This document shows, piece after piece, positions 14,092 to 27,585 of a stretch of 64,000 bases of DNA. Below the pieces are notes generated by a model. That model had not been told where the DNA came from. It saw only the letters and a list, made by a program, of their open reading frames with translations, and did not search any database. Positions within the stretch are counted from its first letter, which is position 1. Each line of letters starts with the position of its first letter. A program made the translations under genes and the position numbers. Source of the DNA: Acinetobacter seifertii. Lineage in GTDB: Bacteria > Pseudomonadota > Gammaproteobacteria > Pseudomonadales > Moraxellaceae. The stretch spans positions 1,047,204-1,111,203 of the forward strand of contig NZ_KB851200.1 of NCBI RefSeq assembly GCF_000368065.1, written 5' to 3'.

Positions 14092-15012
14092 TTAAGCACT
14101 AGCGCGACGACGTTCAACTTCAGTTGAAGGAGCGGCAGCGGCATCTTTAACAAGTTCGATGTTAAATGTGATGTGTTTGAAAGCGTGATCTAAACCACGG
14201 CGTTGAATTTCAGCTGGGTCATTTACATCAACTGCTGTTGCCACTAAGCCGTCACGGGTTGCGAAGGCAAAGTCGTCCCATAAGTACTCATCACCCTCAA
14301 TGTTGAATTGAGTAGTCAGCTTGCGGAAACCTGGCGCAGAAACGAAGTAGTGAACGTGAGATGGACGGTTACCATGACGGCCTAATTTGTTAAGAAGGGC
14401 TTGAGTTGTACCTTCTGGCGGGCAACCATAACCAACAGGCATCGTGGTTAATGCAACATATTTACCATCAGCATCAGTCAAAATACTACGGCGTAAATTG
14501 AAGTCAGATTGAGACTTATCAAAGAATGAATAGTTACCCAAACTGTTGGCATGCCATACTTCAACTTTGGCATTTTCAATGATCTTGCCATCAGTATCGG
14601 TCACAGTACCTTCAATAATTAAGGTATCGATTTTGCCAGATTCTGTACCATCATCCATACGCGCAAAGCCAACAGATTCAGGCGCGCCAGCTACATAAAG
14701 TGGGCCTTCGATGGTACGTGGTGTGCCACCCGTAACGCCAGCTTTTGCATCAGCTTCATCAGCACGTAAATCAAGATAGTGCTCTAAACCTAAACCAGCT
14801 GCCAAAAGACCAAGTTCGTTTGCTTGACCTGCGTCTGTGAAATATTCCAAACCTTTCCATACTTCTGAAGGTTGGATGTCTAAATCTTCAATGGCTTGAA
14901 ATAAATCCTCGAGAAGGCGCACAACAATTTGTTGAACACGTGCATCGACTTCACCTTTAGCAGTGTCGACATTCATTTGTTTTACAAGCGCATCAATTTG
15001 TTGACGGTTCAT
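14092..15012 (-). CDS. catA: Catechol 1,2-dioxygenase CatA
   Basis: CatA opens catechol between the hydroxyls to cis,cis-muconate using non-haem Fe(III). The 306-residue protein has the helical N-terminal linker/dimer domain (residues 1-~100) and a beta-sandwich catalytic domain. The four iron ligands are visible: Tyr161 (LGNYSFF), Tyr195 (PVGYGCP), His219 and His221 (RPSHVHYFV). The spacing agrees with the structurally known Acinetobacter enzyme (Y164, Y200, H224, H226). Here catA lies between catC and catI, unlike A. baylyi where catA is separate. A GCTGCCAC / GTGGCAGC pair flanks a long loop in the catC-catA gap (15047-15095). Confidence 0.96.
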   Translation of the reverse strand: MNRQQIDALVKQMNVDTAKGEVDARVQQIVVRLLEDLFQAIEDLDIQPSEVWKGLEYFTDAGQANELGLLAAGLGLEHYLDLRADEADAKAGVTGGTPRTIEGPLYVAGAPESVGFARMDDGTESGKIDTLIIEGTVTDTDGKIIENAKVEVWHANSLGNYSFFDKSQSDFNLRRSILTDADGKYVALTTMPVGYGCPPEGTTQALLNKLGRHGNRPSHVHYFVSAPGFRKLTTQFNIEGDEYLWDDFAFATRDGLVATAVDVNDPAEIQRRGLDHAFKHITFNIELVKDAAAAPSTEVERRRASA

Positions 15013-15171
15013 ACTAAAACTCCTTAAGTATGCAATACGGTTTTGGGTGGCAGCGCTGCGGGCATTTTGTTTTGCTAGCGAATAAGTGCTGCCACATTCC
15101 TTTTTACCTTCTGAATAATCTGCTTGGTTTTTAAATGGACTTCAGAGATCACATTTAAAAAATTTTTTGGT

Positions 15172-15462
15172 TTACGAATCATCATCACGAACAGAAGATG
15201 GGTGACGGTTCATTGCCATCACTTCAATGTCCATATATGGATAGAGAGGTAAGCCCTGTAAAATGTTGTGCAATTCCTCATTGCTCTCAACATCAAAAAT
15301 ACTGATATTTGAATACTGGCCTGTAATACGCCAGATGTGACGCCATTTACCTTGGCGTTGTAAATCTTGTGAATAAGCCTTTTCAACGGCCTTAATTTCA
15401 TTTGCTTTGTCGGCTGGCATATCAAGTGGAATATGCACATCCATACGTACATGAAATAACAT
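15172..15462 (-). CDS. catC: Muconolactone delta-isomerase CatC
   Basis: CatC isomerises muconolactone to 3-oxoadipate enol-lactone. The 96-residue protein starts MLFHVRMDVHIP, typical of the small decameric isomerase, and retains the RITGQYSN and LPLYPYMDIEV blocks. The start is preceded by AAGGAG. It lies 23 bp after catB, so the two are co-translated from one message. Its length is normal for the family. Confidence 0.95.
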   Translation of the reverse strand: MLFHVRMDVHIPLDMPADKANEIKAVEKAYSQDLQRQGKWRHIWRITGQYSNISIFDVESNEELHNILQGLPLYPYMDIEVMAMNRHPSSVRDDDS

Positions 15463-15485
15463 GGGAAACTCCTTATCCTGTTGCC

Positions 15486-16592
15486 TTAACGACGTAATTT
15501 CTCAATCTTATCTTCATCAATTTCAATGCCTAAGCCCGGAGCTGTTGGCAAATGCAATTCAAAGTTTTCGTAACGTAGCGGCTCTTTTAAAATTTCTTCG
15601 GTCAGTAATAACGGACCAAATAATTCAGTACCGAACGCTAACGTTTCAAAAGTTGCAAATGCATGAGCAGAAGCAATACTTCCTACAGGGCCTTCAAGCA
15701 TGGTACCGCCATATAGGTCGATTCCAGCTAAACCAGCAATTTTGCCAACTTCACAAGCTTCGATCAGGCCACCAGATTGTTCAATTTTCACGGCAAATAC
15801 ATCTGCACCATGATTTTTTGCAATACGGTATGCGCTGTCAGGACCAGTTAAGGCTTCATCTGCCATAATTGCGACATCAAAACGCTGGGTGAGGCGAGCA
15901 AGTGCTTCGGTATTTTGAATTGCACATGGCTGCTCGATTAAATCGATTCCACCATCTTGGAGCTGTTGAATACCTTGAATACATTCAAGCTCTGACCATG
16001 CACGATTTACGTCAACACGTACACTAATATCTGCACCTAGTGCTTTTTTAATCGCAATCACATGGTCAACATCTTGCTGTAAAGGACGTGCACCAATTTT
16101 AAGTTTGAACGTGTTGTGGCGCTTCAGCTCAATCATTTTGCGAGCTTCAGCAATATCTTTTTCAGTGTCACCAGACGCAAGCGTCCAAAGTACAGGTAAA
16201 CTATTACGCAGACGGCCACCTAAAACTTCGCTTAATGGCACACCTAAACGTTTGGCCTGAATATCAAGTAGGGCAGTCTGAATGGCACACTTGGCAAAGC
16301 GGTTACCATTAATATTTTTACGAATCAGTTTGAGTGTTTGTGCAACATTTAAATCTTTAACTGATGTCAGTAATGGTGCAAAGTAGGTATCAATATTGGC
16401 TTTGACACTCTCAGGACTTTCTTCACCATAGTTCAGCCCACCAATGGTGGTGGCTTCACCCCAACCGACAATACCATCCGTGGTCGTAATTTTAACGAGT
16501 ACCAAAGTCTGGATACGCATAGTAGTCACAGACAACTGGTGAGGACGGATAGTTGGAATATCCACAAGTATGGTTTCTATGGTTCTATACAT
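15486..16592 (-). CDS. catB: Muconate cycloisomerase CatB
   Basis: CatB converts cis,cis-muconate to muconolactone. It is a 368-residue enolase-superfamily protein with an N-terminal capping domain and a TIM barrel. The K-x-K base motif is visible in FKLKIGARPL, metal-ligand regions follow (VRVDVNRAW, IEQP, ADEAL) and VGWGEATTIGGLNYGEE lies near the N-terminus. It is the first gene of the cat operon and is divergent from catM across a 100-bp promoter region. Muconate, its substrate, is the usual inducer through CatM. Confidence 0.96.
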   Translation of the reverse strand: MYRTIETILVDIPTIRPHQLSVTTMRIQTLVLVKITTTDGIVGWGEATTIGGLNYGEESPESVKANIDTYFAPLLTSVKDLNVAQTLKLIRKNINGNRFAKCAIQTALLDIQAKRLGVPLSEVLGGRLRNSLPVLWTLASGDTEKDIAEARKMIELKRHNTFKLKIGARPLQQDVDHVIAIKKALGADISVRVDVNRAWSELECIQGIQQLQDGGIDLIEQPCAIQNTEALARLTQRFDVAIMADEALTGPDSAYRIAKNHGADVFAVKIEQSGGLIEACEVGKIAGLAGIDLYGGTMLEGPVGSIASAHAFATFETLAFGTELFGPLLLTEEILKEPLRYENFELHLPTAPGLGIEIDEDKIEKLRR

Positions 16593-16621
16593 GAAGTTTC
16601 AACTATTACGAACTTGTTTGT

Positions 16622-17607
<986 letters not shown>

Positions 17608-18568: not shown

Positions 18569-19468
18569 TTATTGAACTAAGGTCGGCAAATTAAGGATGA
18601 CTTGTGCATCTTCTATAACATCTAAGCGTAAAATTTTTGAAGCGCCAAGTTCATTTAATAACTTTGTTAAAGGCCCATCGTGTTTCTGAAGTTGAACATT
18701 CTTTGGAAAAAGCTTTTGTGCAAAAGAAAGAATGTTGGACTCAACTTCTGTTTGATGCCATTTTCCATCGACTACATGTAGCATCGTTGCTTTATTAATA
18801 TGAGTTTCAGAATCGACACGTTTTAAAGTCGGTACAGGAGTTTTTAAGCTTAAATCTAATTTTCCATTAAGATCGGCAATATTGGCTTGCACTTCTTTTT
18901 GGTTAATGTCGATGTCAATTTTCGTTAACCATTTTGGTAGCTGGTAACCATATACCCCACGGACTCTGGCAATTTCTGTATCTACAGGTAAAGCCAAAAC
19001 ATGTGCATAAAAATGACGTTGACGTATGGATTTCATCAACTCCGCAATATGTGGTCCGTGAGCATTAGGTTTACGTACAACAATCGCAATCGAAACTTCG
19101 TTATAAGGGTCATTATCACAAACTGAATAGCTAAAGAATGTGATCGCGACCAATCCATAACCCGGAAATGGTTGTAACGGTGTTAAGGCAGCAGGCAGTT
19201 TTGCTTTAATCTTTTTAATGGGCGCAAGCATGAGCAGTTGTACATTCGCACTACGATAATAAAAATTGGGTGCCCAGACAGGGCCTACACGTGATTCCAC
19301 AATTTTTTTAGGAATATGACGGAAAAAGTCGATGTTACCAACAGCAGGATCTAGAGCGACTTCATCTAAATCGGGGTTCATTCTGAAACGGTCATAATAA
19401 CCACCTTTGGGTACTTTGACTTTTTGTTGCCCAAATTCAACTTCAGTAAACCGTTGTTTTGTATTCAT
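18569..19468 (-). CDS. Acetoacetate decarboxylase-family protein
   Basis: This 299-residue protein matches the acetoacetate-decarboxylase superfamily by its PFPGYGLVAITFFSYSVCDNDPY and YNEVSIAIVV regions and overall length. I could not confirm the Schiff-base lysine pair of true decarboxylases, so the reaction is uncertain; other family members act as aldolase-dehydratases or hydrolases. Its promoter (19549-19579) carries the MerR-type 19-bp spacer dyad, so it belongs to the same putative regulon as the hydrolase, OYE and DJ-1 genes, and is divergent from the hydrolase gene. The function within that regulon is unknown. Confidence 0.75.
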   Translation of the reverse strand: MNTKQRFTEVEFGQQKVKVPKGGYYDRFRMNPDLDEVALDPAVGNIDFFRHIPKKIVESRVGPVWAPNFYYRSANVQLLMLAPIKKIKAKLPAALTPLQPFPGYGLVAITFFSYSVCDNDPYNEVSIAIVVRKPNAHGPHIAELMKSIRQRHFYAHVLALPVDTEIARVRGVYGYQLPKWLTKIDIDINQKEVQANIADLNGKLDLSLKTPVPTLKRVDSETHINKATMLHVVDGKWHQTEVESNILSFAQKLFPKNVQLQKHDGPLTKLLNELGASKILRLDVIEDAQVILNLPTLVQ

Positions 19469-19548: not shown

Positions 19549-19579
19549 ACTATAAGTTTAAAGTTAACTTTAAAGTCAA
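19549..19579 (-). promoter_or_regulatory. MerR-type promoter A (to the decarboxylase-like gene)
   Basis: On the minus strand: TTGACT, a 19-bp spacer, TATAGT. The spacer region contains a perfect 18-bp palindrome, TTTAAAGTTAACTTTAAA (19557-19574). A 19-bp spacer with a central dyad is the hallmark of MerR-activated promoters. The 317-bp gap 19469-19785 holds this promoter and promoter B; I see no gene in it. Confidence 0.75.
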
Positions 19580-19699
19580 GATTTTAATTTTGATGATTAA
19601 TGTCTTTGACATTTAAATGAAATAAAAAAGGGGAAAGATGAGAAGAATTTAAGACGGTACTTTCATATAAATTTTATTTTAAAAATACAATTAAGGTGA

Positions 19700-19730
19700 T
19701 TGACCTTAAAGTTAACTTTAAGCTTAGTAT
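19700..19730 (+). promoter_or_regulatory. MerR-type promoter B (to the alpha/beta hydrolase)
   Basis: TTGACC, a 19-bp spacer and TAGTAT, with the perfect palindrome CTTAAAGTTAACTTTAAG at 19705-19722. This equals CTTAAAG-N4-CTTTAAG, which as I recall is the published operator of the MerR-family aldehyde sensor AdhR of Bacillus subtilis. Confidence 0.8.
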
Positions 19731-19785
19731 CAATATTCAAATTTTATAACCAATCTATAAACAGTTTTTTAGCAGGAGAACAAAG

Positions 19786-20616
19786 ATGGGATATGTAACC
19801 ACAAAAGACGGCGTAGAAATTTTCTATAAAGATTGGGGTCCACACGATGCCCAAGTATTATTTTTTCATCATGGTTGGCCTTTAAGTTCAGATGATTGGG
19901 ATACTCAATTACTTTTTTTCCTTAAAGAAGGTTTTCGTGTAGTTGCTCATGACCGCCGTGGGCACGGGCGTTCAAGTCAGGTGTGGGATGGTCACGATAT
20001 GGACCACTATGCAGATGACGTTGCAGAAGTGGTGAAGCATTTAAATATTAAAAATGCAATTCATATTGGCCACTCAACAGGTGGTGGTGAAGTGGCTCAC
20101 TATATTGCTCGCCATGGTCAAGAAAACGTTAAAAAGGCTGTGCTTGTAAGCGCAGTACCGCCGCTTATGGTTAAAACTGAAAATAATCCAGAAGGGTTAC
20201 CAAAAGAAGTTTTTGATGACCTGCAAAATCAAGTTCTCACCAACCGTGCGCAATTTTTCCGAGACCTTCCATCTGGTCCATTCTATGGTTTTAACCGACC
20301 AGATGCGAAGCCATCTGAAGGTGTTATTGCTAACTGGTGGCGTCAGGGCATGACAGGTAGTGCCAAAGCGCATTACGACGGTATTGTGGCATTCTCGCAA
20401 ACTGACTTCACCGAAGACTTAAAGAAAATCACCATTCCTGTTTTGGTGTTACATGGTGATGACGATCAGATCGTGCCTTATAAAACTTCTGGCGTGAAAT
20501 CTGCTGAATTGCTTCAAAATAGCCAACTCAAAATCTATCCGGGTTTTTCTCATGGCATGTTAACTGTCAATCATGAAGTGATTAATGCGGACTTGTTGGC
20601 ATTTATTCGTGAATAA
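19786..20616 (+). CDS. Alpha/beta hydrolase (cofactor-free haloperoxidase-like)
   Basis: This 276-residue alpha/beta hydrolase has the nucleophile elbow GHSTGGGEV, the oxyanion region HHGWPLSSDDW, acid motif LHGDDDQIVP and catalytic His in GFSHGML. These are the features of the non-haem chloroperoxidase/esterase group. The physiological substrate is unknown; the group includes esterases, lactonases and perhydrolases. It is expressed from MerR-type promoter B and ends with a strong terminator, so it is monocistronic. Ribosome-binding site AGGAG lies before the start. Confidence 0.85.
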   Translation: MGYVTTKDGVEIFYKDWGPHDAQVLFFHHGWPLSSDDWDTQLLFFLKEGFRVVAHDRRGHGRSSQVWDGHDMDHYADDVAEVVKHLNIKNAIHIGHSTGGGEVAHYIARHGQENVKKAVLVSAVPPLMVKTENNPEGLPKEVFDDLQNQVLTNRAQFFRDLPSGPFYGFNRPDAKPSEGVIANWWRQGMTGSAKAHYDGIVAFSQTDFTEDLKKITIPVLVLHGDDDQIVPYKTSGVKSAELLQNSQLKIYPGFSHGMLTVNHEVINADLLAFIRE

Positions 20617-20637
20617 TTAAAAGCGTTTAGACTTTAG

Positions 20638-20668
20638 AAAAAGAGGCATATCGAGTGCCTCTTTTTTT
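20638..20668 (+). terminator. Rho-independent terminator
   Basis: An 11-bp stem (AAAAAGAGGCA / TGCCTCTTTTT) with a 7-nt loop and a T-tract follows the hydrolase gene. Confidence 0.9.
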
Positions 20669-20719
20669 ATATAAAAATTAATAAATTCAAAATATTAATG
20701 AGATAAATACTAAAAGGTG

Positions 20720-20750
20720 TTGACATTAAAGTTAGCTTTAATCTTAAAGT
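20720..20750 (+). promoter_or_regulatory. MerR-type promoter C (to the OYE operon)
   Basis: TTGACA, a 19-bp spacer and TAAAGT, with the dyad ATTAAAG-N4-CTTTAAT at 20725-20742. Confidence 0.75.
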
Positions 20751-20777
20751 AAAGCCATACTGAATGAGGTCATTCCA

Positions 20778-22016
20778 ATGAAAGTGTTCGAAAAATTAGT
20801 ATTTCCAAATGGCTCAAATGTTCCTAACCGTATTGCCAAAGCAGCAATGGAAGAAAACATGGCTGATTTAAACCATGCACCGTCAGAAGAGTTAATGCGT
20901 TTATATCAAGCTTGGGCAAATGGTGGTGTAGGTTTAATCATTACCGGAAATGTGATGGTAGACCGCCGAGCAATGACTGGACCGGGTGGTGTCGTACTAG
21001 AAGATGAAAAGCATCTAGATACTTTTAAAAAATGGGCGCAAATTAGCCGTTCAAAAGGCGCTCAGGTTTGGCTTCAAATTAATCATCCCGGTCGTCAAAT
21101 GCAGTCAAATTTAGGGCAACAAACATGGGCACCTTCTGCTGTTGCTTTAGATTTAGGAAAAATGTCAGACCGCTTTAATACACCAATTGAAATGAACGAA
21201 TCTATGATTGCAGAAGTGATTCAGCGTTTTGCAAATACGGCACGTTTAGGCGAAAAAGCAGGGTTTACAGGTGTTGAGATTCATGCAGCGCATGGTTATT
21301 TATTAAGCCAGTTTCTTTCGCCACTGAGTAATAAACGCCAAGATCGCTGGGGTGGTTCTTTAGAAAACCGCGCTCGTATTTTAATTGAGATTGTGGAAGC
21401 AGTTCGTAAAGTAGTTTCGCCTCATTTTACTGTAGCGGTAAAACTCAATTCAGCCGATTTCCAACGTGGCGGATTTAGTGCTGAAGATGCTCAACAAGTG
21501 GTTAAAATGTTAAATGTGCATGCAGTCGATTTGGTTGAACTTTCAGGTGGTAGTTATGAAGCACCAGCCATGCAAGGCCAAGCACGTGATGGTCGTACAC
21601 TTGCCCGTGAAGCTTACTTTTTAGAGTTTGCTCAAGAAATCCGAAAAGTTGCCAAAATGCCTGTTATGGTCACAGGCGGTATCCGCCGTAAGCAGGTAGC
21701 AGAGCAGGTGGTTGAAAGTGGTGTAGATATGGTCGGTATTGCCACAGCTTTAGCCATTGAACCTAATTTGCCAAATGCTTGGAAACAAGGCCAAAATGTT
21801 TCACCTGAACTCAAACCAATTACTTGGAAAAATAAAACATTTGCTTCACTTGCCAATATGGCTGTGGTCAAATTTCAGTTACGTAATTTAAGTGCTGGTA
21901 AAAAAACAAAACCAAATGTTTCACCAGCTTGGGCTTTAATTTTGCAACAATCAGCGATGTCATGCCGTACTCGCCAATACAAAAAAGGCATGCGTGACTA
22001 TTCATTTGCTTCTTAA
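20778..22016 (+). CDS. NADH:flavin oxidoreductase (Old Yellow Enzyme family)
   Basis: This 412-residue FMN-binding TIM-barrel enzyme shows the family blocks NRIAKAAMEENMAD, VWLQINHPGRQ, GFTGVEIHAAHGYLLSQFLSP, RWGGSLENRARI and PVMVTGGIRR. The HAAH motif carries substrate-anion ligands. Family members reduce the C=C bond of electrophilic enones and quinones with NAD(P)H. It is driven by MerR-type promoter C and is followed 15 bp later by the saccharopine-dehydrogenase-like gene. Placement in a MerR regulon with DJ-1 proteins parallels nemA in electrophile detoxification, but a catabolic role is equally possible. Confidence 0.88.
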   Translation: MKVFEKLVFPNGSNVPNRIAKAAMEENMADLNHAPSEELMRLYQAWANGGVGLIITGNVMVDRRAMTGPGGVVLEDEKHLDTFKKWAQISRSKGAQVWLQINHPGRQMQSNLGQQTWAPSAVALDLGKMSDRFNTPIEMNESMIAEVIQRFANTARLGEKAGFTGVEIHAAHGYLLSQFLSPLSNKRQDRWGGSLENRARILIEIVEAVRKVVSPHFTVAVKLNSADFQRGGFSAEDAQQVVKMLNVHAVDLVELSGGSYEAPAMQGQARDGRTLAREAYFLEFAQEIRKVAKMPVMVTGGIRRKQVAEQVVESGVDMVGIATALAIEPNLPNAWKQGQNVSPELKPITWKNKTFASLANMAVVKFQLRNLSAGKKTKPNVSPAWALILQQSAMSCRTRQYKKGMRDYSFAS

Positions 22017-22031
22017 AAAGTGAGTTGTGTT

Positions 22032-23099
22032 ATGACAAATCTTAACGATTCAAACTGGTTAATTTATGGAGCAAATGGCTACACGGGCGAATTAATCGCT
22101 CGTGAAGCTGTACGCCAAGGTTTAAAACCGACTTTGGCTGGCCGTAACAAAGCTAAGGTTGAAGCACTTGCACAAGAGTTGGGGCTTGACTATAAAGCTT
22201 TTGAGCTTGATAACGTAGATGCAATAAGTGAGCAACTCCAAGGTTTTAAACTGGTTATGCACTGTGCAGGGCCTTTTTCAGCGACATCGAAGCCTATGAT
22301 GGAAGCGTGTATAAATGCCGGCGCTCACTATTTAGATATTACCGGTGAAATCGCTGTATTTGAGTTGGCACAGTCACTGAACAGCCAAGCTGAAAAAGCC
22401 GATATTGTGCTTTGTCCGGGTGTTGGTTTCGATGTGATTCCGACAGATTGTGTCGCTGCCGCGCTCAAAGAAGCATTGCCAGATGCGACTCATTTAGCAC
22501 TTGGTTTTGACTCTAGAACAGGGTTTTCACCGGGTACTGCTAAAACCAGTACAGAAGGCATGGCAGAAGGTGGAAAAATTCGTAAAAACGGAAAAATTAC
22601 CACCGTTCCATTAGCACATTATGTTCGGACCATTGATTTTGGTGATGGTAAAAAAAGTGCCATGAGTGTTCCTTGGGGAGACGTATCTACAGCGTTCTAT
22701 ACAACAGGTATTCCAAACATTGAAGTCTTTGTACCCGCATTTCCCAAAATGATTTTTGGTGCGAAAATGATGAACTATGTACGTCCAATATTAAAAATCA
22801 ATGCCGTGCAGAAGTTTATTAAGTCGCGTATTGAAAAAACGGTTGTTGGGCCAAATGAGGAACTCCGCGCGAAAGTACCTACCTATGTTTGGGGTGAGGC
22901 AAGAAATACGCGTGGGGAAATCAAAACCGCCCGCATCCAAACGGAAAATGCCTATAGCCTTACCGTAAATGGCTCACTGACTGTGGTGAATTATTTACTC
23001 AAAAATACTGTTAAAGGTGGTACATATACACCAGCAAAACTGATGGGTTATAAGCTAGTGACCGAGTTGCCGGGTTCTGGTCCGCTGATCATTAATTAA
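22032..23099 (+). CDS. Saccharopine dehydrogenase-like NAD(P)-binding protein
   Basis: The protein (355 residues from this start) begins with a Rossmann fold, WLIYGANGYTGELIAREAV, followed by AGRNKAKVEALA and a CAGPFSATSKPMMEACINAGAHYLDITGE block. These are typical of the saccharopine-dehydrogenase/trans-acting enoyl-reductase family. In mycobacteria relatives reduce polyketide enoyl groups; here the substrate is unknown. I chose ATG 22032 over an upstream GTG at 22020 because the Rossmann strand follows at normal distance. It forms an operon with the OYE gene and ends at a strong terminator. Two sequential reductases suggest stepwise reduction of an unsaturated compound (inference). Confidence 0.8.
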   Translation: MTNLNDSNWLIYGANGYTGELIAREAVRQGLKPTLAGRNKAKVEALAQELGLDYKAFELDNVDAISEQLQGFKLVMHCAGPFSATSKPMMEACINAGAHYLDITGEIAVFELAQSLNSQAEKADIVLCPGVGFDVIPTDCVAAALKEALPDATHLALGFDSRTGFSPGTAKTSTEGMAEGGKIRKNGKITTVPLAHYVRTIDFGDGKKSAMSVPWGDVSTAFYTTGIPNIEVFVPAFPKMIFGAKMMNYVRPILKINAVQKFIKSRIEKTVVGPNEELRAKVPTYVWGEARNTRGEIKTARIQTENAYSLTVNGSLTVVNYLLKNTVKGGTYTPAKLMGYKLVTELPGSGPLIIN

Positions 23100-23133
23100 A
23101 AGCTTTTATTAAAACAGCATGTTTATAGATCGT

Positions 23134-23169
23134 CCCGAACAAGGAGTTATTCTTGTTCGGGTTTTTTTT
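23134..23169 (+). terminator. Rho-independent terminator
   Basis: A perfect 10-bp stem (CCCGAACAAG / CTTGTTCGGG) with an 8-nt loop and eight T's ends the OYE operon. Confidence 0.95.
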
Positions 23170-23300
23170 AAATATTTCAAGTAAATAGAGCTTTCTATAG
23201 ATAAAAAGAAAAACAGAAAACAAAACACTCCATAAGTAATAATTCAAATTGAATATACTAAAAAGCGATAAATATTTTTCATAACAAAGGAATGAGAATA

Positions 23301-23876
23301 ATGAGAAAACTCATACTGTTTCTACATGCATCGCTAGACAGTTTTGTGGAAGGTCCAAATGGGGCAATGGACATAGGCTGGATTGCTTACGATGCCGATT
23401 TGGCAAATCATGCCAAAGAAATTTTGAGCACTGCCGATACGGTGATTTGGGGACGTGCGACTTACCAAATGATGCATAATTACTGGCCAACCATGCTTTC
23501 AAATCCTGAAGCTTCAGAGCATGAACGTAATCACGCTAAGTGGATTGAAAAGACCGAAAAAATCGTTTTTTCAACCACATTAGATACAGTTGAATGGAAT
23601 AATTCCAGATTGGTAAAAGACCATGTCGAAGAAGAAATTAATAAGCTGAAACAAAAAGCGGGTAAGGATATGGTGATTCTGGGGAGTCCAAGGTTCGCGC
23701 ACTATTTGATGCAACTTGGTTTAATTGATGAATATAAAATTACGGTTTCACCTGTACTAATTGGTAGTGGCTTGCCGCTATTCCAAGGTATTCAAGAAAA
23801 GACCAATCTTAAACTCATTGAAAATAAAACTTTTGCTTCTGGTGCGATAGCTCTTCACTATCAAAAGGTTGGTTAA
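23301..23876 (+). CDS. Dihydrofolate reductase-family (RibD C-terminal-like) protein
   Basis: This 191-residue protein has the DHFR/RibD-C fold: KLILFLHASLDSFVEGPNG at the N-terminus, VIWGRATYQMM, and the late block GKDMVILGSPRFAHYLMQLGLIDEY ending with PLFQG. Such stand-alone proteins are NADPH-dependent reductases of mostly unknown substrate. A second in-frame ATG nine bases upstream (23292) abuts the AAGGA element, so the ATG at 23301 with nine-base spacing is preferred. No MerR-type operator precedes it, so it is probably outside the neighbouring regulon. Confidence 0.8.
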   Translation: MRKLILFLHASLDSFVEGPNGAMDIGWIAYDADLANHAKEILSTADTVIWGRATYQMMHNYWPTMLSNPEASEHERNHAKWIEKTEKIVFSTTLDTVEWNNSRLVKDHVEEEINKLKQKAGKDMVILGSPRFAHYLMQLGLIDEYKITVSPVLIGSGLPLFQGIQEKTNLKLIENKTFASGAIALHYQKVG

Positions 23877-23898
23877 TTTTTTCTATAATATTTATATG

Positions 23899-23939
23899 AA
23901 AAAGACGAATTACAGGGGTAGTCTGTAATTCGTCTTTTT
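23899..23939. terminator. Bidirectional terminator
   Basis: A perfect 17-bp stem (AAAAAGACGAATTACAG and its complement) with a 7-nt loop lies between convergent genes, with A- and T-tracts on either side. Confidence 0.95.
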
Positions 23940-23943
23940 AGAT

Positions 23944-24750
23944 TTATTGAATTGTACTTAAACGCTTAATCACTGCTTCAGCAATTTCTTTACTTGATTG
24001 AGGGTTTTGTCCAGTAATAATTCTGTCGTCTGAAACCACATACGACGTAAACGGAATAAATGCTTCTTTGTATTTTGCGCTACGTTCAATGAGTCCATTT
24101 TGTAAAGAAAATGGAACTTGAGACTTAATACCTGAAAGTGTTTCTTCTATATTTGCAAAACCTGTAACAGTTCTACCTGCAATTAAGGCTTTGCCACTTT
24201 CATCCTGTAAAGGCAATAAACCACCTACGCCGTGACAGACCGCTGAAACGACTCCACCTTGGCGATAGATTTGTTCGCTAATGTTTTGCAAAGCTTTATT
24301 GTTTGGAAAATCCCACATGGTACCGTGCCCACCCGTATAGTAAATGGCTTTGTACTGGGTAGGATTAATCACATTTGGAGCCAATGTTGTTTTTAATCGT
24401 TGCATAAATGCTGAGTCGGCTAAATGCTGACGGGCAGATTTGTCTAGGTAAATAGACTTTAAGCTACGTTCATCTAGAGGCACTTCACCACCTAAAGGAC
24501 TTACAAAATCCATTTCATAGCCGGCAGCTAATGCAACATCATAAAAATGGGTGAGTTCGGTTAGCCAAAGTCCTGTTTTATCTGAACGAGAAGGGTAAGT
24601 CGAATGATTAGTCATTACGACTAAAATTTTTCCATTTGTTTTTGCAAGGCTTTGAGTTTTATCTGACTCTGCGGCATAAACCACATTTGTAGATAAAAGA
24701 ATGGCAAAAATAATGGTTAACCAACGCTGAAAATTCCAAACTTTAAACAT
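23944..24750 (-). CDS. Exported DJ-1/PfpI-family protein (Hsp31-like)
   Basis: The first ~27 residues form a signal peptide (WLTIIFAILLSTNVVYAAES, cleavage after YAA or VYA). The mature part is a class-1 glutamine-amidotransferase-like/DJ-1 domain with the nucleophile elbow AVCHGVGGLL and the YYTGGHGTMWDF motif shared by Hsp31/glyoxalase III-type proteins. Family members convert methylglyoxal-type dicarbonyls or act as protein deglycases and chaperones. A periplasmic member is unusual next to its cytoplasmic paralogue at 26887. Its promoter (24780-24810) has the MerR-type dyad. Confidence 0.82.
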   Translation of the reverse strand: MFKVWNFQRWLTIIFAILLSTNVVYAAESDKTQSLAKTNGKILVVMTNHSTYPSRSDKTGLWLTELTHFYDVALAAGYEMDFVSPLGGEVPLDERSLKSIYLDKSARQHLADSAFMQRLKTTLAPNVINPTQYKAIYYTGGHGTMWDFPNNKALQNISEQIYRQGGVVSAVCHGVGGLLPLQDESGKALIAGRTVTGFANIEETLSGIKSQVPFSLQNGLIERSAKYKEAFIPFTSYVVSDDRIITGQNPQSSKEIAEAVIKRLSTIQ

Positions 24751-24779
24751 GACAGATCCTCATTCATTACCTGTAGCCA

Positions 24780-24810
24780 ATCGTATGTTTAAAGCACGCT
24801 TTAAGGTCAA
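24780..24810 (-). promoter_or_regulatory. MerR-type promoter E (to the exported DJ-1 gene)
   Basis: On the minus strand: TTGACC, 19-bp spacer, TACGAT. The dyad is CTTAAAG-N4-CTTTAAA (24788-24805) with centre CGTG instead of TTAA. Confidence 0.75.
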
Positions 24811-24826
24811 TAGAGTTGTTAAAAAA

Positions 24827-25243
24827 TTATGGTGTTTTTGCTTTGTCGAAATAGAGATTCATAAGACGTTCTGCATTTTGCTCGCAGGTAATTTCATCGG
24901 GTTTGTTGTTGATTGCATCAATCATGGTACGTAAGTTTTGCTTACTCACCTTTAGCTTTTGTTCTAAAAGTTCTATTTCCTGAATTTTTAATTCAATGGT
25001 TTGGATGAGTGCGTCATGGTTCCAAGTGGCAACTTTTGAAGGCAAAAAAGCTTTAATTTCTGCTAAAGAAAAACCAACTTGCTGGGCTTGCTGAATCAAA
25101 GAAAGCTGCTTCAAATCGTTATCGGTATATTCACGATAACCATTTGATTTTCTTTTTGCTTTAGGTAAGAGTTTGATTTGCTCGTAATAACGAATTGTAG
25201 GGGTGCTTAAACCACTTAATTTTGATAACTCGCTAATATTCAT
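24827..25243 (-). CDS. MerR-family transcriptional regulator (AdhR/NmlR-like by context)
   Basis: The N-terminal winged helix (MNISELSKLSGLSTPTIRYY, then YREYTDNDLKQL) and a C-terminal coiled coil (residues ~75-112) are classic MerR. With the ATG at 25243 it has 138 residues; a frame extending to 25264 would overlap the -35 of promoter D and lacks the usual MerR start, so I reject it. The only cysteine is Cys120; no cysteine is present around residue 52-54, where NmlR/AdhR sensors have theirs. It lies between promoters E and D, and five promoters with the same dyad in this 6-kb stretch are its likely targets. Confidence 0.85.
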   Translation of the reverse strand: MNISELSKLSGLSTPTIRYYEQIKLLPKAKRKSNGYREYTDNDLKQLSLIQQAQQVGFSLAEIKAFLPSKVATWNHDALIQTIELKIQEIELLEQKLKVSKQNLRTMIDAINNKPDEITCEQNAERLMNLYFDKAKTP

Positions 25244-25257
25244 GGCCACAGACTCTA

Positions 25258-25288
25258 TTGACATTCAAGTTAACTTTAGACTTATAGT
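25258..25288 (+). promoter_or_regulatory. MerR-type promoter D, pointing at the interrupted DJ-1 gene
   Basis: TTGACA, a 19-bp spacer and TATAGT on the plus strand, with the dyad ATTCAAG-N4-CTTTAGA at 25263-25280. It points away from merR toward the insertion sequence and, beyond it, the DJ-1 gene at 26887. It was presumably that gene's promoter before the insertion and may also serve merR autoregulation. Confidence 0.7.
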
Positions 25289-25359
25289 TGCTTAAAAGCA
25301 AGGTTCATAACTTTACCAAGCACACACTTTCAGTAACAGCTTTCTATGCTTTGATAGGA

Positions 25360-26840
25360 TGTTATTCACCAATTAAAATGTCTATGCGATAAACCATTTA
25401 AAATGTCCTGTTTTTAACCACAAGAGTCAAGCACAGGATTTAACTTTCTTTGTTCAATAACAGCTTTCTGAGCTTTACGACTCGGCATACTTTTCTTGAG
25501 ACGGGAACGTTTATTCTGTTTTTCCAACTCTTCATGCTGTTGCTGAATATGTGCCAGAACTGTACCTAACCGTTTATTCTCAACGATCTCATTCTGCTGT
25601 AGCCCAGCTAATTTATTGAAAATGCTGTAGTTGAGCTTTCGTCCCTCGTACATGAGGGCCACAGTGCCATCTGGGTACTCCAGAAATGAAATATATTGCC
25701 CAACAAGCTTATGATTCAGCTCTGTCGGTTCAAGCAGATAAATACATTTGTCATAGGTCAGGGTCAGATTCTTGGTGACCTTACGCGGTTCCTGCCAGGT
25801 AAAAATATCATCCAGTTCAAGATGAGATTCGGTTAATGGCCGATGTAAATTCTTTGAGTTTCGCGCACACTTGGCAAACTTCTGATTGAAATGCTCAATA
25901 AAGCAGGGCAGCCAGGCATTTGCCTCGGCAATTGAACAGATACCTTCTAGGCGCATTTCCTTGATCAGGCGATCCTGGAGTGTTCTATTGGCACGTTCCA
26001 CACGGCCTTTGGCCTGGGGTGAGTTGGCGAAGATAATATCAATATTTAACTCATTCAGAATCCGCCCAAATTGCGTGATCTGGCTGTCCTGGCTCGATTT
26101 CTGGTTCACTCGGAAGACCGAATGTTTATCGCTATAAAAGGCCAGAGGCTTACCGTATTGTTCAATGTAGGCTCGGGTTGAAAGCATATAGTCGAAGGTC
26201 GTTTCCGCCTCACAGAAGCGCAGATGCAACAGCTTTCCAGTGGCATCATCGATATAAACCAGCAAGCAGCACTTAGCAGCGCGTCCTTCGAACCAGTCAT
26301 GATATGAGCCATCAATCTGGATTAGCTCACCGAAGCAATCCCGGTTATAACGTGGCTGATATGGACGTTTAAGGCGCTTGGATCGTGGAATCCAGAGGTC
26401 ATTTGCAGTCATCCAGCGCCGAAGCGTTTCTACCGGGATATTCAGGTCAAACATGCTGCTGAGCTTCTCATGGGCCAAGGTAGGTCCAAATCCCAGCAGA
26501 TGTTCAGAAATAATGGAAAGACATTTTGATTTTAATAAATCATCATGGCGACGATGGCCAGGTTGACCACGACTGGCATGCGCCATACCTGAAACACCAT
26601 CTTGATTGAGCTTCTGTAATAACCGGGTAATTTGACGGGTTGAAAGATTAAGGATTTCAGCAGCACGGACTTGTGTAATACGATGATCTCGAACGTCTTG
26701 CAGAACAGCAAGACGTTGAATTTCTTTGTCAGACATAGTGATCAGCATCTATATTTCATATCCAGTCCATGATGTTTAAGCCATCATAAACTAGACATTT
26801 TTATTGGTGAGAATATAGACACTTTAAATGGGTTCTAACA
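25360..26840 (-). mobile_element. ISNCY-type insertion sequence
   Basis: About 1.48 kb with one transposase gene. Both proposed ends start TGTTA and read alike inward (TGTTATTCACCAATTAAAAT on the left, TGTTAGAACCCATTTAAAGT on the right). Each end holds two tandem copies of an A-T-T-A-A-A-x-T-G-T-C motif spaced 24-25 bp (25371 and 25396; 26829 and 26805 on the other strand), probably transposase binding sites. I find no clear target duplication, so the exact termini are uncertain by several bases. Confidence 0.75.
25414..26748 (-). CDS. ISNCY-family DDE transposase
   Basis: This 444-residue protein has an N-terminal helix-turn-helix (TQVRAAEILNLSTRQITRLL) and an RNase-H-like integrase core whose acidic residues are visible in ELIQIDGSYHDWF, AFYSDKHSVF and the GRVERANRTLQDRL block (Glu). 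A basic C-terminal tail follows. It is complete, so the element may still be active. A second in-frame ATG at 26736 is an alternative start. Confidence 0.88.
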   Translation of the reverse strand: MLITMSDKEIQRLAVLQDVRDHRITQVRAAEILNLSTRQITRLLQKLNQDGVSGMAHASRGQPGHRRHDDLLKSKCLSIISEHLLGFGPTLAHEKLSSMFDLNIPVETLRRWMTANDLWIPRSKRLKRPYQPRYNRDCFGELIQIDGSYHDWFEGRAAKCCLLVYIDDATGKLLHLRFCEAETTFDYMLSTRAYIEQYGKPLAFYSDKHSVFRVNQKSSQDSQITQFGRILNELNIDIIFANSPQAKGRVERANRTLQDRLIKEMRLEGICSIAEANAWLPCFIEHFNQKFAKCARNSKNLHRPLTESHLELDDIFTWQEPRKVTKNLTLTYDKCIYLLEPTELNHKLVGQYISFLEYPDGTVALMYEGRKLNYSIFNKLAGLQQNEIVENKRLGTVLAHIQQQHEELEKQNKRSRLKKSMPSRKAQKAVIEQRKLNPVLDSCG

Positions 26841-26886
26841 ATAGATATAAGAATAGAATTATAAATATGGAAATGAGGTGAAAAAA

Positions 26887-27585
26887 ATGTCTAAACGCAT
26901 ATTACATGTCGTGACTAATATTTCACGCTATAAGGATGTTGATGAACCAACAGGGCTATGGTTAGGCGAACTTACCCATGCCTATGATGAGTTTGAAAAG
27001 CAAGGTTATATACAAGATATTGTTAGCCCAAATGGTGGTAAAACACCGATTGAACCTAAGTCACTTTTGCCTTTAGTTGCAGATAAATCCGTTAAAGACC
27101 GAGAAAAAGATCAATCTTTTATAATGCTGCTGGCAAACACCTTTAAGCCTTCCGATATTCATTGGCAAGATTATGACGTGATCTACTACACAGGTGGTCA
27201 CGGTGTCATGTGGGATTTTTTAGATAATCCTGAACTGCAAGAAATCACCAAAAATATTTATGAAAAGGGCGGTATTGTTTCAAGTGTTTGCCACGGATAT
27301 TGCGGCTTGCTCAATGTTAGGCTTTCAAATGGTAAACGGCTTATAGACGGGAAAAAGTTAACTGGCTTTGCATGGAGTGAAGAGGTTCTGGCTGGGGTTG
27401 CAAAAAAAGTCCCATATAATGCCGAAGAGCTCGCTAAAGAAAATGGCGCTCGTTATGAAAAAGCTTTCATTCCATTTGCACCGTATGTCGTTCAAGATGG
27501 CAACTTGATTACTGGTCAAAACCCGTTTTCAGCTAAGAAGACGGCTTTAGCGATTATAGAAACGCTTGAAAAGAGTGCTTCGTGA
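26887..27585 (+). CDS. Cytoplasmic DJ-1/PfpI-family protein, cut off from its promoter by an IS
   Basis: This 232-residue paralogue of the protein at 23944 lacks a signal peptide. It has the DJ-1/Hsp31-type motifs YYTGGHGVMWDF and SSVCHGYCGLL, whose Cys is the expected nucleophile; Asp/Glu partners are less certain. The ATG at 26887 follows GAGGTG at good spacing; the GTG at 26878 lies within that element. Only 46 bp separate the insertion sequence from the start, and the likely native promoter (25258-25288) lies on the far side. Expression may now depend on a promoter reading out of the IS or be lost. It ends at a strong terminator. Confidence 0.85.
   Translation: MSKRILHVVTNISRYKDVDEPTGLWLGELTHAYDEFEKQGYIQDIVSPNGGKTPIEPKSLLPLVADKSVKDREKDQSFIMLLANTFKPSDIHWQDYDVIYYTGGHGVMWDFLDNPELQEITKNIYEKGGIVSSVCHGYCGLLNVRLSNGKRLIDGKKLTGFAWSEEVLAGVAKKVPYNAEELAKENGARYEKAFIPFAPYVVQDGNLITGQNPFSAKKTALAIIETLEKSAS

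Follow-up and report, generated by a model that had tools for sequence, protein, structure and literature searches.

A putative local MerR regulon of five promoters in Acinetobacter seifertii, conserved in relatives that carry the regulator

In the window analysed here, a stretch of 64,000 nucleotides from Acinetobacter seifertii (assembly GCF_000368065.1, contig NZ_KB851200.1), five promoters of one form flank a gene for a MerR-family regulator, merR. Comparison with other genomes makes it quite probable that these promoters constitute a real, conserved and local regulon under this MerR protein, working by the mechanism set out below. Each promoter has a TTGACN -35 element, a dyad of the type TTAAAG-N4-CTTTAA and, at a spacing of 19 bp, a TAnnnT -10 element (TATAGT, TAGTAT, TAAAGT, TACGAT and TATAGT). 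The promoters and the regulator gene are:

19549..19579, minus strand: promoter/operator P1, with an exact pattern match at 19558-19579
19700..19730, plus strand: promoter/operator P2, with an exact pattern match at 19700-19721
20720..20750, plus strand: promoter/operator P3, the conserved core site, with an exact pattern match at 20720-20741
24780..24810, minus strand: promoter/operator P4, with an exact pattern match at 24789-24810
25258..25288, plus strand: promoter/operator P5, with 2 mismatches, beginning 15 bp upstream of the start codon of merR, which is read from the other strand
24827..25243, minus strand: merR, a 138-residue MerR-family regulator with a single cysteine, Cys120 (Pfam MerR_1, MerR and MerR-DNA-bind)

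A sequence-only reading of this DNA had described these five promoters by their -35 element, dyad and 19-bp spacing, and the description holds for four sites exactly and for the fifth with its two mismatches; the operator it had singled out, CTTAAAG-N4-CTTTAAG, is present without deviation at 19700 as CTTAAAG-TTAA-CTTTAAG. When up to 3 mismatches are allowed, the pattern TTGACNTTAAAGNNNNCTTTAA has 8 matches in the window, three of them being the same dyads on the opposite strand, against 0.63 expected, and 0 of 100 shuffles reached 8. A genome-wide scan for the operator, which the same reading had proposed as a check, was run over all 4.23 Mb: the only exact matches are the four in the window, and there is none with 1 mismatch. 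Elsewhere in the genome there are three sites with 2 mismatches, which, like one site with 3 mismatches (together L179-L182), score below 5 bits with the refined matrix, such that a genome-wide regulon is not supported. At up to 3 mismatches the genome holds 71 pattern matches while the reversed control has 107; with no enrichment at this level, only the strong sites serve as evidence, and the regulon seems to be local.

Which genes, then, would such promoters serve? The functions proposed in the sequence-only reading are borne out by Pfam, except that the match of the acetoacetate-decarboxylase-like protein falls slightly short of its cut-off, and an insertion element does lie ahead of the cytoplasmic DJ-1 gene, as had been stated:

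18569..19468, minus strand: acetoacetate-decarboxylase (ADC)-like protein, predicted target of P1 (Pfam ADC, 29.5 bits against a cut-off of 29.8)
19786..20616, plus strand: alpha/beta hydrolase (ABH) of the non-heme chloroperoxidase/arylesterase class, predicted target of P2 (Pfam and similarity)
20778..22016, plus strand: old yellow enzyme (OYE) family FMN oxidoreductase, behind P3 (Pfam Oxidored_FMN, 196 bits; relatives in the PDB)
22032..23099, plus strand: saccharopine-dehydrogenase-like NADP-binding protein, following OYE in the same orientation (Pfam Sacchrp_dh_NADP)
23944..24750, minus strand: DJ-1/PfpI protein with a signal-peptide-like N-terminus (DJex), predicted target of P4 (Pfam DJ-1_PfpI)
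about 25358..26841, unstranded: ISNCY-family insertion sequence between P5 and DJcyt, ends approximate (transposase 481 bits against a cut-off of 250)
26887..27585, plus strand: cytoplasmic protein of the DJ-1/Hsp31/glyoxalase III class (DJcyt), predicted target of P5 in relatives (Pfam and similarity)

In similarity searches, DJcyt resembles Hsp31 and the glutathione-independent glyoxalase III, and ABH resembles non-heme chloroperoxidases and arylesterases; the best PDB match of OYE is a chain named 'FMN binding', followed by chromate reductases and NADPH dehydrogenases. Export of DJex is predicted from a by-eye reading of its sequence. P5 and DJcyt are unseparated in the relative L131, and in the present strain the insertion, judging from its position, should uncouple the DJcyt gene from P5.

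The surroundings of merR were fetched for 48 relatives (for 5 of these, less than 4 kb of contig was available on one side), and gene order around merR is largely conserved among them. Counting gene instances rather than genomes, with paralogs included for the ADC-like genes, and leaving out matches below 55% identity, matches starting past query residue 60 and those with less than 300 bp upstream, a site precedes 49 of 49 ADC-like genes, 33 of 34 ABH genes, all 45 OYE genes, all 35 DJex genes and 37 of 39 DJcyt genes, the latter beginning 46-115 bp past the site. The neighbours that are not predicted targets present the opposite picture, with an upstream site in 0/10 cases for RibD, 0/14 for MBL, 0/15 for tetR and 1/49 for merR itself, and the saccharopine-dehydrogenase-like gene behind OYE has a site of its own in 0/22. 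The two DJcyt misses are the window, with its ISNCY element in between, and L136, a second and separate case in which P5 (10218-10248, with TCGAC as -35) and the DJ-1 gene (17266) lie about 7 kb apart.

Sixteen sites are not assigned to the listed genes in this table: P5 of the window and of L136, both with insertions, one in L177 at a contig edge (ABH), and 13 others. Most of the unassigned sites were traced, namely to proteins of a single type, 414-425 residues long, in six relatives (L169, L170, L171, L172, L174 and L175), of which the one member tested, that of L169, matches Sacchrp_dh_NADP; to a shortened OYE, also in L169; and to an aldehyde dehydrogenase in L147 (2133-3578; Pfam Aldedh, 294 bits), 64 bp past a strong site, whose best NCBIfam model is benzaldehyde dehydrogenase at 342 bits, under the cut-off of 550. 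This last gene lies opposite the ABH promoter, in the position of the ADC-like gene in many relatives.

The spacing proves equally constant. A search by -35 element and dyad alone, run over the window and its 48 relatives, yielded 212 sites, and all 212 have TAnnnT at 19 bp while none has it at 16, 17, 18 or 20 bp; an additional TAnnnT is found at 21 bp in 17 sites, at 22 bp in 1 and at 24 bp in 19. The placement of the operator dyad inside a spacer of 19-20 bp, a feature of the MerR family, is accordingly seen in every one of the 212. Scanned with the matrix, the 48 relatives gave 211 hits, as against 0 with the reversed matrix and a single hit in total over 20 column permutations. A chance origin of the sites is ruled out by the shuffles, the genome scan, the reversed matrix and the spacing.

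Across the genus, the site goes with the regulator. In a set of 175 Acinetobacter genomes, with merR called at E 1e-20 and the site defined as a 27-base pattern with at most 1 mismatch, merR was found in 49 genomes and the site in 52, namely in every one of the 49 that carry merR and in 3 of the 126 that lack it (Fisher p 2.8e-40, kinship among genomes ignored); the reversed control of the pattern gave two hits in total. Among the three without merR, the sites of G059 lie between ABH and ADC-like genes and that of G065 ahead of a truncated ABH frame with a transposase-like frame alongside (by eye), and by their position at these genes both look like parts of the regulon minus its regulator.

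The association extends beyond the genus. At the level of the order, 65 of 293 genomes matched merR, and the surroundings were taken for the best 12 other than the genome itself (E 6e-34 or better, the next being 3e-25). These orthologs, from four other families, are 38-46% identical to the present MerR, and 11 of the 12 loci have an OYE (63-72% identity) preceded by a site; in ten it adjoins merR, and in L253 it lies about 5 kb off. In the remaining locus, L252, a close OYE is absent, and sites stand ahead of merR and of an ADC-like gene. L253 combines merR, both DJ-1 types, the ADC-like protein and OYE, with sites of varying strength ahead of each target, and thus the larger regulon occurs outside Acinetobacter as well. 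A further 17 short order-level loci (L235-L251) were examined and 4 had a site; in the more distant L236, L237 and L240, merR, site and OYE are paired (by eye), and in L235 the site stands ahead of an epimerase-like gene. At the level of the class, where 109 of 321 genomes matched, 2 of 29 short loci examined (L280-L308) had a site, L280 and L281, again with merR, site and OYE paired, the site of L280 being weak. Another 58 non-Acinetobacter MerR loci hold no site of at least 15 bits. Across 15 loci with OYE, identity to P3 is 81% for the site, as against 28% and 26% for its 40-bp flanks. Taken together, co-occurrence, target sites and distant orthologs argue strongly for a single MerR regulon, as the sequence-only reading had supposed; the sites, their spacing, the target set and the link to merR are in this sense established by genome comparison.

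The same holds for the position of the regulator on a branch of its own and for the conservation of Cys120. The protein has the helix-turn-helix and dimerisation helix of the MerR family, as seen from Pfam and from the fold of its AlphaFold2 model in a Foldseek search, and in this model (pLDDT 90.2) the last helix spans residues 120-135, with Cys120 as its first residue. Cys120 is present in 49/49 genus proteins, 12/12 distant proteins and 17/17 rows of a wider alignment, and 48 of the 49 genus proteins are without any further cysteine, that of L150 having a second one at its very end. A tree of 52 proteins places the 25 site-bearing MerRs tested together on one branch (100/98), with seven NmlR-type proteins on a separate branch (100/99) and CueR-like ones on another (77/98); the tree is unrooted, has some long branches and comes with a warning of a long branch next to that of the NmlR proteins. 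It was built without L280, whose protein has one cysteine, near the place of Cys120. By sequence, the present MerR belongs to a subfamily separate from the NmlR/AdhR-type and the CueR-like proteins, the usual core of which is merR plus OYE.

Several observations weigh against a conserved five-promoter regulon governed by this protein. The regulator is carried by just 49 of the 175 genus genomes, and the first matrix was derived from the window's own sites. G022 has an orphan full-length site (L264, 8844-8874) before an NAD-dependent epimerase-like gene in a genome that lacks a close merR ortholog, no downstream gene was found for three sites, two of them in L150 and the third in L152, and L173 retains, of the gene set of the window, only merR and OYE with its site. 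The assignment of the first target as ADC-like is weak; a PDB sequence search at E 0.01 gave zero matches for it. Cys120 is not everywhere the sole cysteine, with Cys52 also occurring in L254, L257 and L237 (3 of the 17 wider rows, all from other families) and another cysteine further along in L240, the row of which is limited to 160 residues in the wider alignment. Finally, binding of the sites by other MerR proteins of this genome is conceivable.

How might the regulon work? The dyad is placed and the elements are spaced as in MerR-type promoters, whose -35 and -10 elements are realigned by the regulator, as is established for the family (PMC5045206). We infer binding, activation and sensing as follows. 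The MerR protein encoded at 24827-25243 would bind the five 16-bp dyads, and the over-long spacer of 19 bp would leave the promoters weak as long as the bound dimer is not activated and does not distort the DNA, a mode of action known from other MerR systems. Activation would then raise the ADC-like protein, the chloroperoxidase-like hydrolase, OYE with the saccharopine-dehydrogenase-like protein and the exported DJ-1 protein together, and the cytoplasmic DJ-1 protein would also be switched on where no insertion sequence intervenes. Since P5 begins so close to the merR start codon, MerR probably controls its own gene too. The likely signal would be a reactive carbonyl or another electrophile, which would modify Cys120 at the beginning of the last helix. 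A reactive carbonyl is made plausible, if indirectly, by the targets, namely the DJ-1 protein of the glyoxalase III/Hsp31 type, OYE and the aldehyde dehydrogenase of one relative, and on these grounds we somewhat favour an electrophile or carbonyl as the inducer. A parallel would exist in the NemR-NemA system of Escherichia coli, which we take to be an electrophile-responsive control of an OYE-family enzyme; NemR, however, is presumably a TetR-type repressor, in contrast to the MerR-type control over 19-bp promoters proposed here.

The regulon could also be real and its signal a different one, a specific, non-electrophilic catabolic substrate such as an enone or ester that is processed by OYE, the hydrolase and the decarboxylase-like protein. 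The set of enzymes could indeed form a pathway, and the window adjoins catechol genes (by eye). However, among the 48 relatives this neighbourhood recurs, within the stretch fetched, in L135 only; the target sets differ from species to species (one has an aldehyde dehydrogenase, several have a second dehydrogenase), which suits detoxification better, and the DJ-1 proteins suit carbonyl stress. We regard a catabolic inducer as rather unlikely. The catechol pathway genes themselves, with a LysR regulator, occupy 14092-17607 of the window, directly upstream of the cluster (names by eye); a link between them and the regulon is not supported, as it is common to L135 alone of the 48 relatives.

A metal-responsive regulator of the CueR type is improbable. 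CueR is the top-scoring solved relative both by sequence (E 8e-15) and by Foldseek E-value (TM 0.71), and the two proteins agree in length and domain order. Yet the C-terminal loop of CueR has, as we take it, two metal-binding cysteines where the present MerR has one, the protein scores 88 bits against the CueR cut-off of 147, and no metal transporter or chaperone is found among the targets; by contrast, four other MerR genes of the genus (L213-L216) adjoin a frame with P-type-ATPase motifs (by eye). Membership in CueR was rejected on the single cysteine and the score.

The sequence-only reading had named the regulator AdhR-like, which in the strict sense would mean a true AdhR/NmlR protein that senses formaldehyde or methylglyoxal through a cysteine near positions 52-54. 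As regards the operator, the name has some basis. In L309 (Paenibacillus massiliensis), an AdhR-type MerR gene with the FIKC cysteine adjoins an alcohol-dehydrogenase-type gene (by eye), and between the two lies TTGACTTCAAGTGAGCTTTAAGTGTTAAATT, with similar half-sites and a 19-bp spacing, the dyad being 1 bp nearer the -35; among 10 NmlR-type loci scanned, such a dyad occurs in L309 and L317 only, and the refined matrix hits 0 of the 10. CTTAAAG-N4-CTTTAAG is, we assume, the operator of AdhR (YraB) in Bacillus subtilis, and a DJ-1-type target would likewise be shared if YraA of the AdhR regulon is a DJ-1 relative, as we take it to be. One review calls YraA a cysteine proteinase and gives the cysteine at 52-54 as absolutely conserved in the NmlR/AdhR clade (PMC4776306). 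None of the 49 genus proteins has a cysteine there, in contrast to three distant members of the present clade with one at position 52, and the protein scores 58 bits with the NmlR model against a cut-off of 175 that no scanned genome passed, the B. subtilis control included. In the NmlR-type rows aligned (L315 and L317 yielded no MerR row), 5/8 have the cysteine and 3/8 do not, two of the latter being among the seven on the separate branch; it therefore separates this MerR from AdhR, yet is an imperfect marker alone. The two systems have in common the MerR family and carbonyl stress as a plausible signal, and resemble each other in operator half-sites and spacing at one AdhR-type locus, but differ in that the present one has five promoters, a core of OYE and no adhA-type gene among its identified targets. 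The operator link to AdhR is suggestive, whereas assignment to the AdhR/NmlR family does not hold by sequence, failing on the defining cysteine, and we consider such a regulator very improbable.

Equally improbable is that the sites serve mainly another regulator, e.g. SoxR, with merR as a passenger: the site centre AAGTTAACTT resembles what we take to be the SoxR box, but the sites track merR in the genus, and in other families, too, merR orthologs have a site nearby. SoxR itself has a four-cysteine iron-sulphur cluster, which a protein with one cysteine cannot hold, and SoxR membership was rejected on this ground and on a score of 33 bits against 117.

If the regulon under the present MerR is thus the preferred reading, its sensing chemistry is the interesting part. 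We tentatively entertain a wider scenario, in which a MerR subfamily of several gammaproteobacterial families turned a metal loop of the CueR type into a one-thiol electrophile sensor at Cys120, with merR and OYE as its core and a multi-promoter carbonyl-stress island as its form in Acinetobacter; as some distant members also carry Cys52, we have slightly lowered our estimate of this one-thiol subfamily, which falls short of an even chance. A MerR with one cysteine could allow electrophile sensing to be separated from metal sensing. More generally, the analysis provides a regulator, an operator and a set of targets that can be put to the test, for a block found in varying form in A. pittii, A. 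nosocomialis and a record of A. baumannii, predicts that several poorly described enzymes have a role in common, and supplies a fixed operator by which the regulon may be read in other genomes bearing the subfamily. An open-access literature search, covering titles and the beginnings of abstracts, found no account of this regulon or of the MerR subfamily behind it.

Two minor observations concern the cluster itself. The A. baumannii record (NZ_CP064203.1, L278) is filed as a plasmid and shows the cluster rearranged; the stretch taken from it contains four sites but lacks ABH. As the sole plasmid hit, it is, at 3.97 Mb and without annotation in that entry, evidently a chromosome, and a plasmid origin was dismissed. 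In the window, a protein with a RibD C-terminal domain is encoded without a site at 23301-23876, inside the cluster, and is matched in 9 of the 48 relatives.

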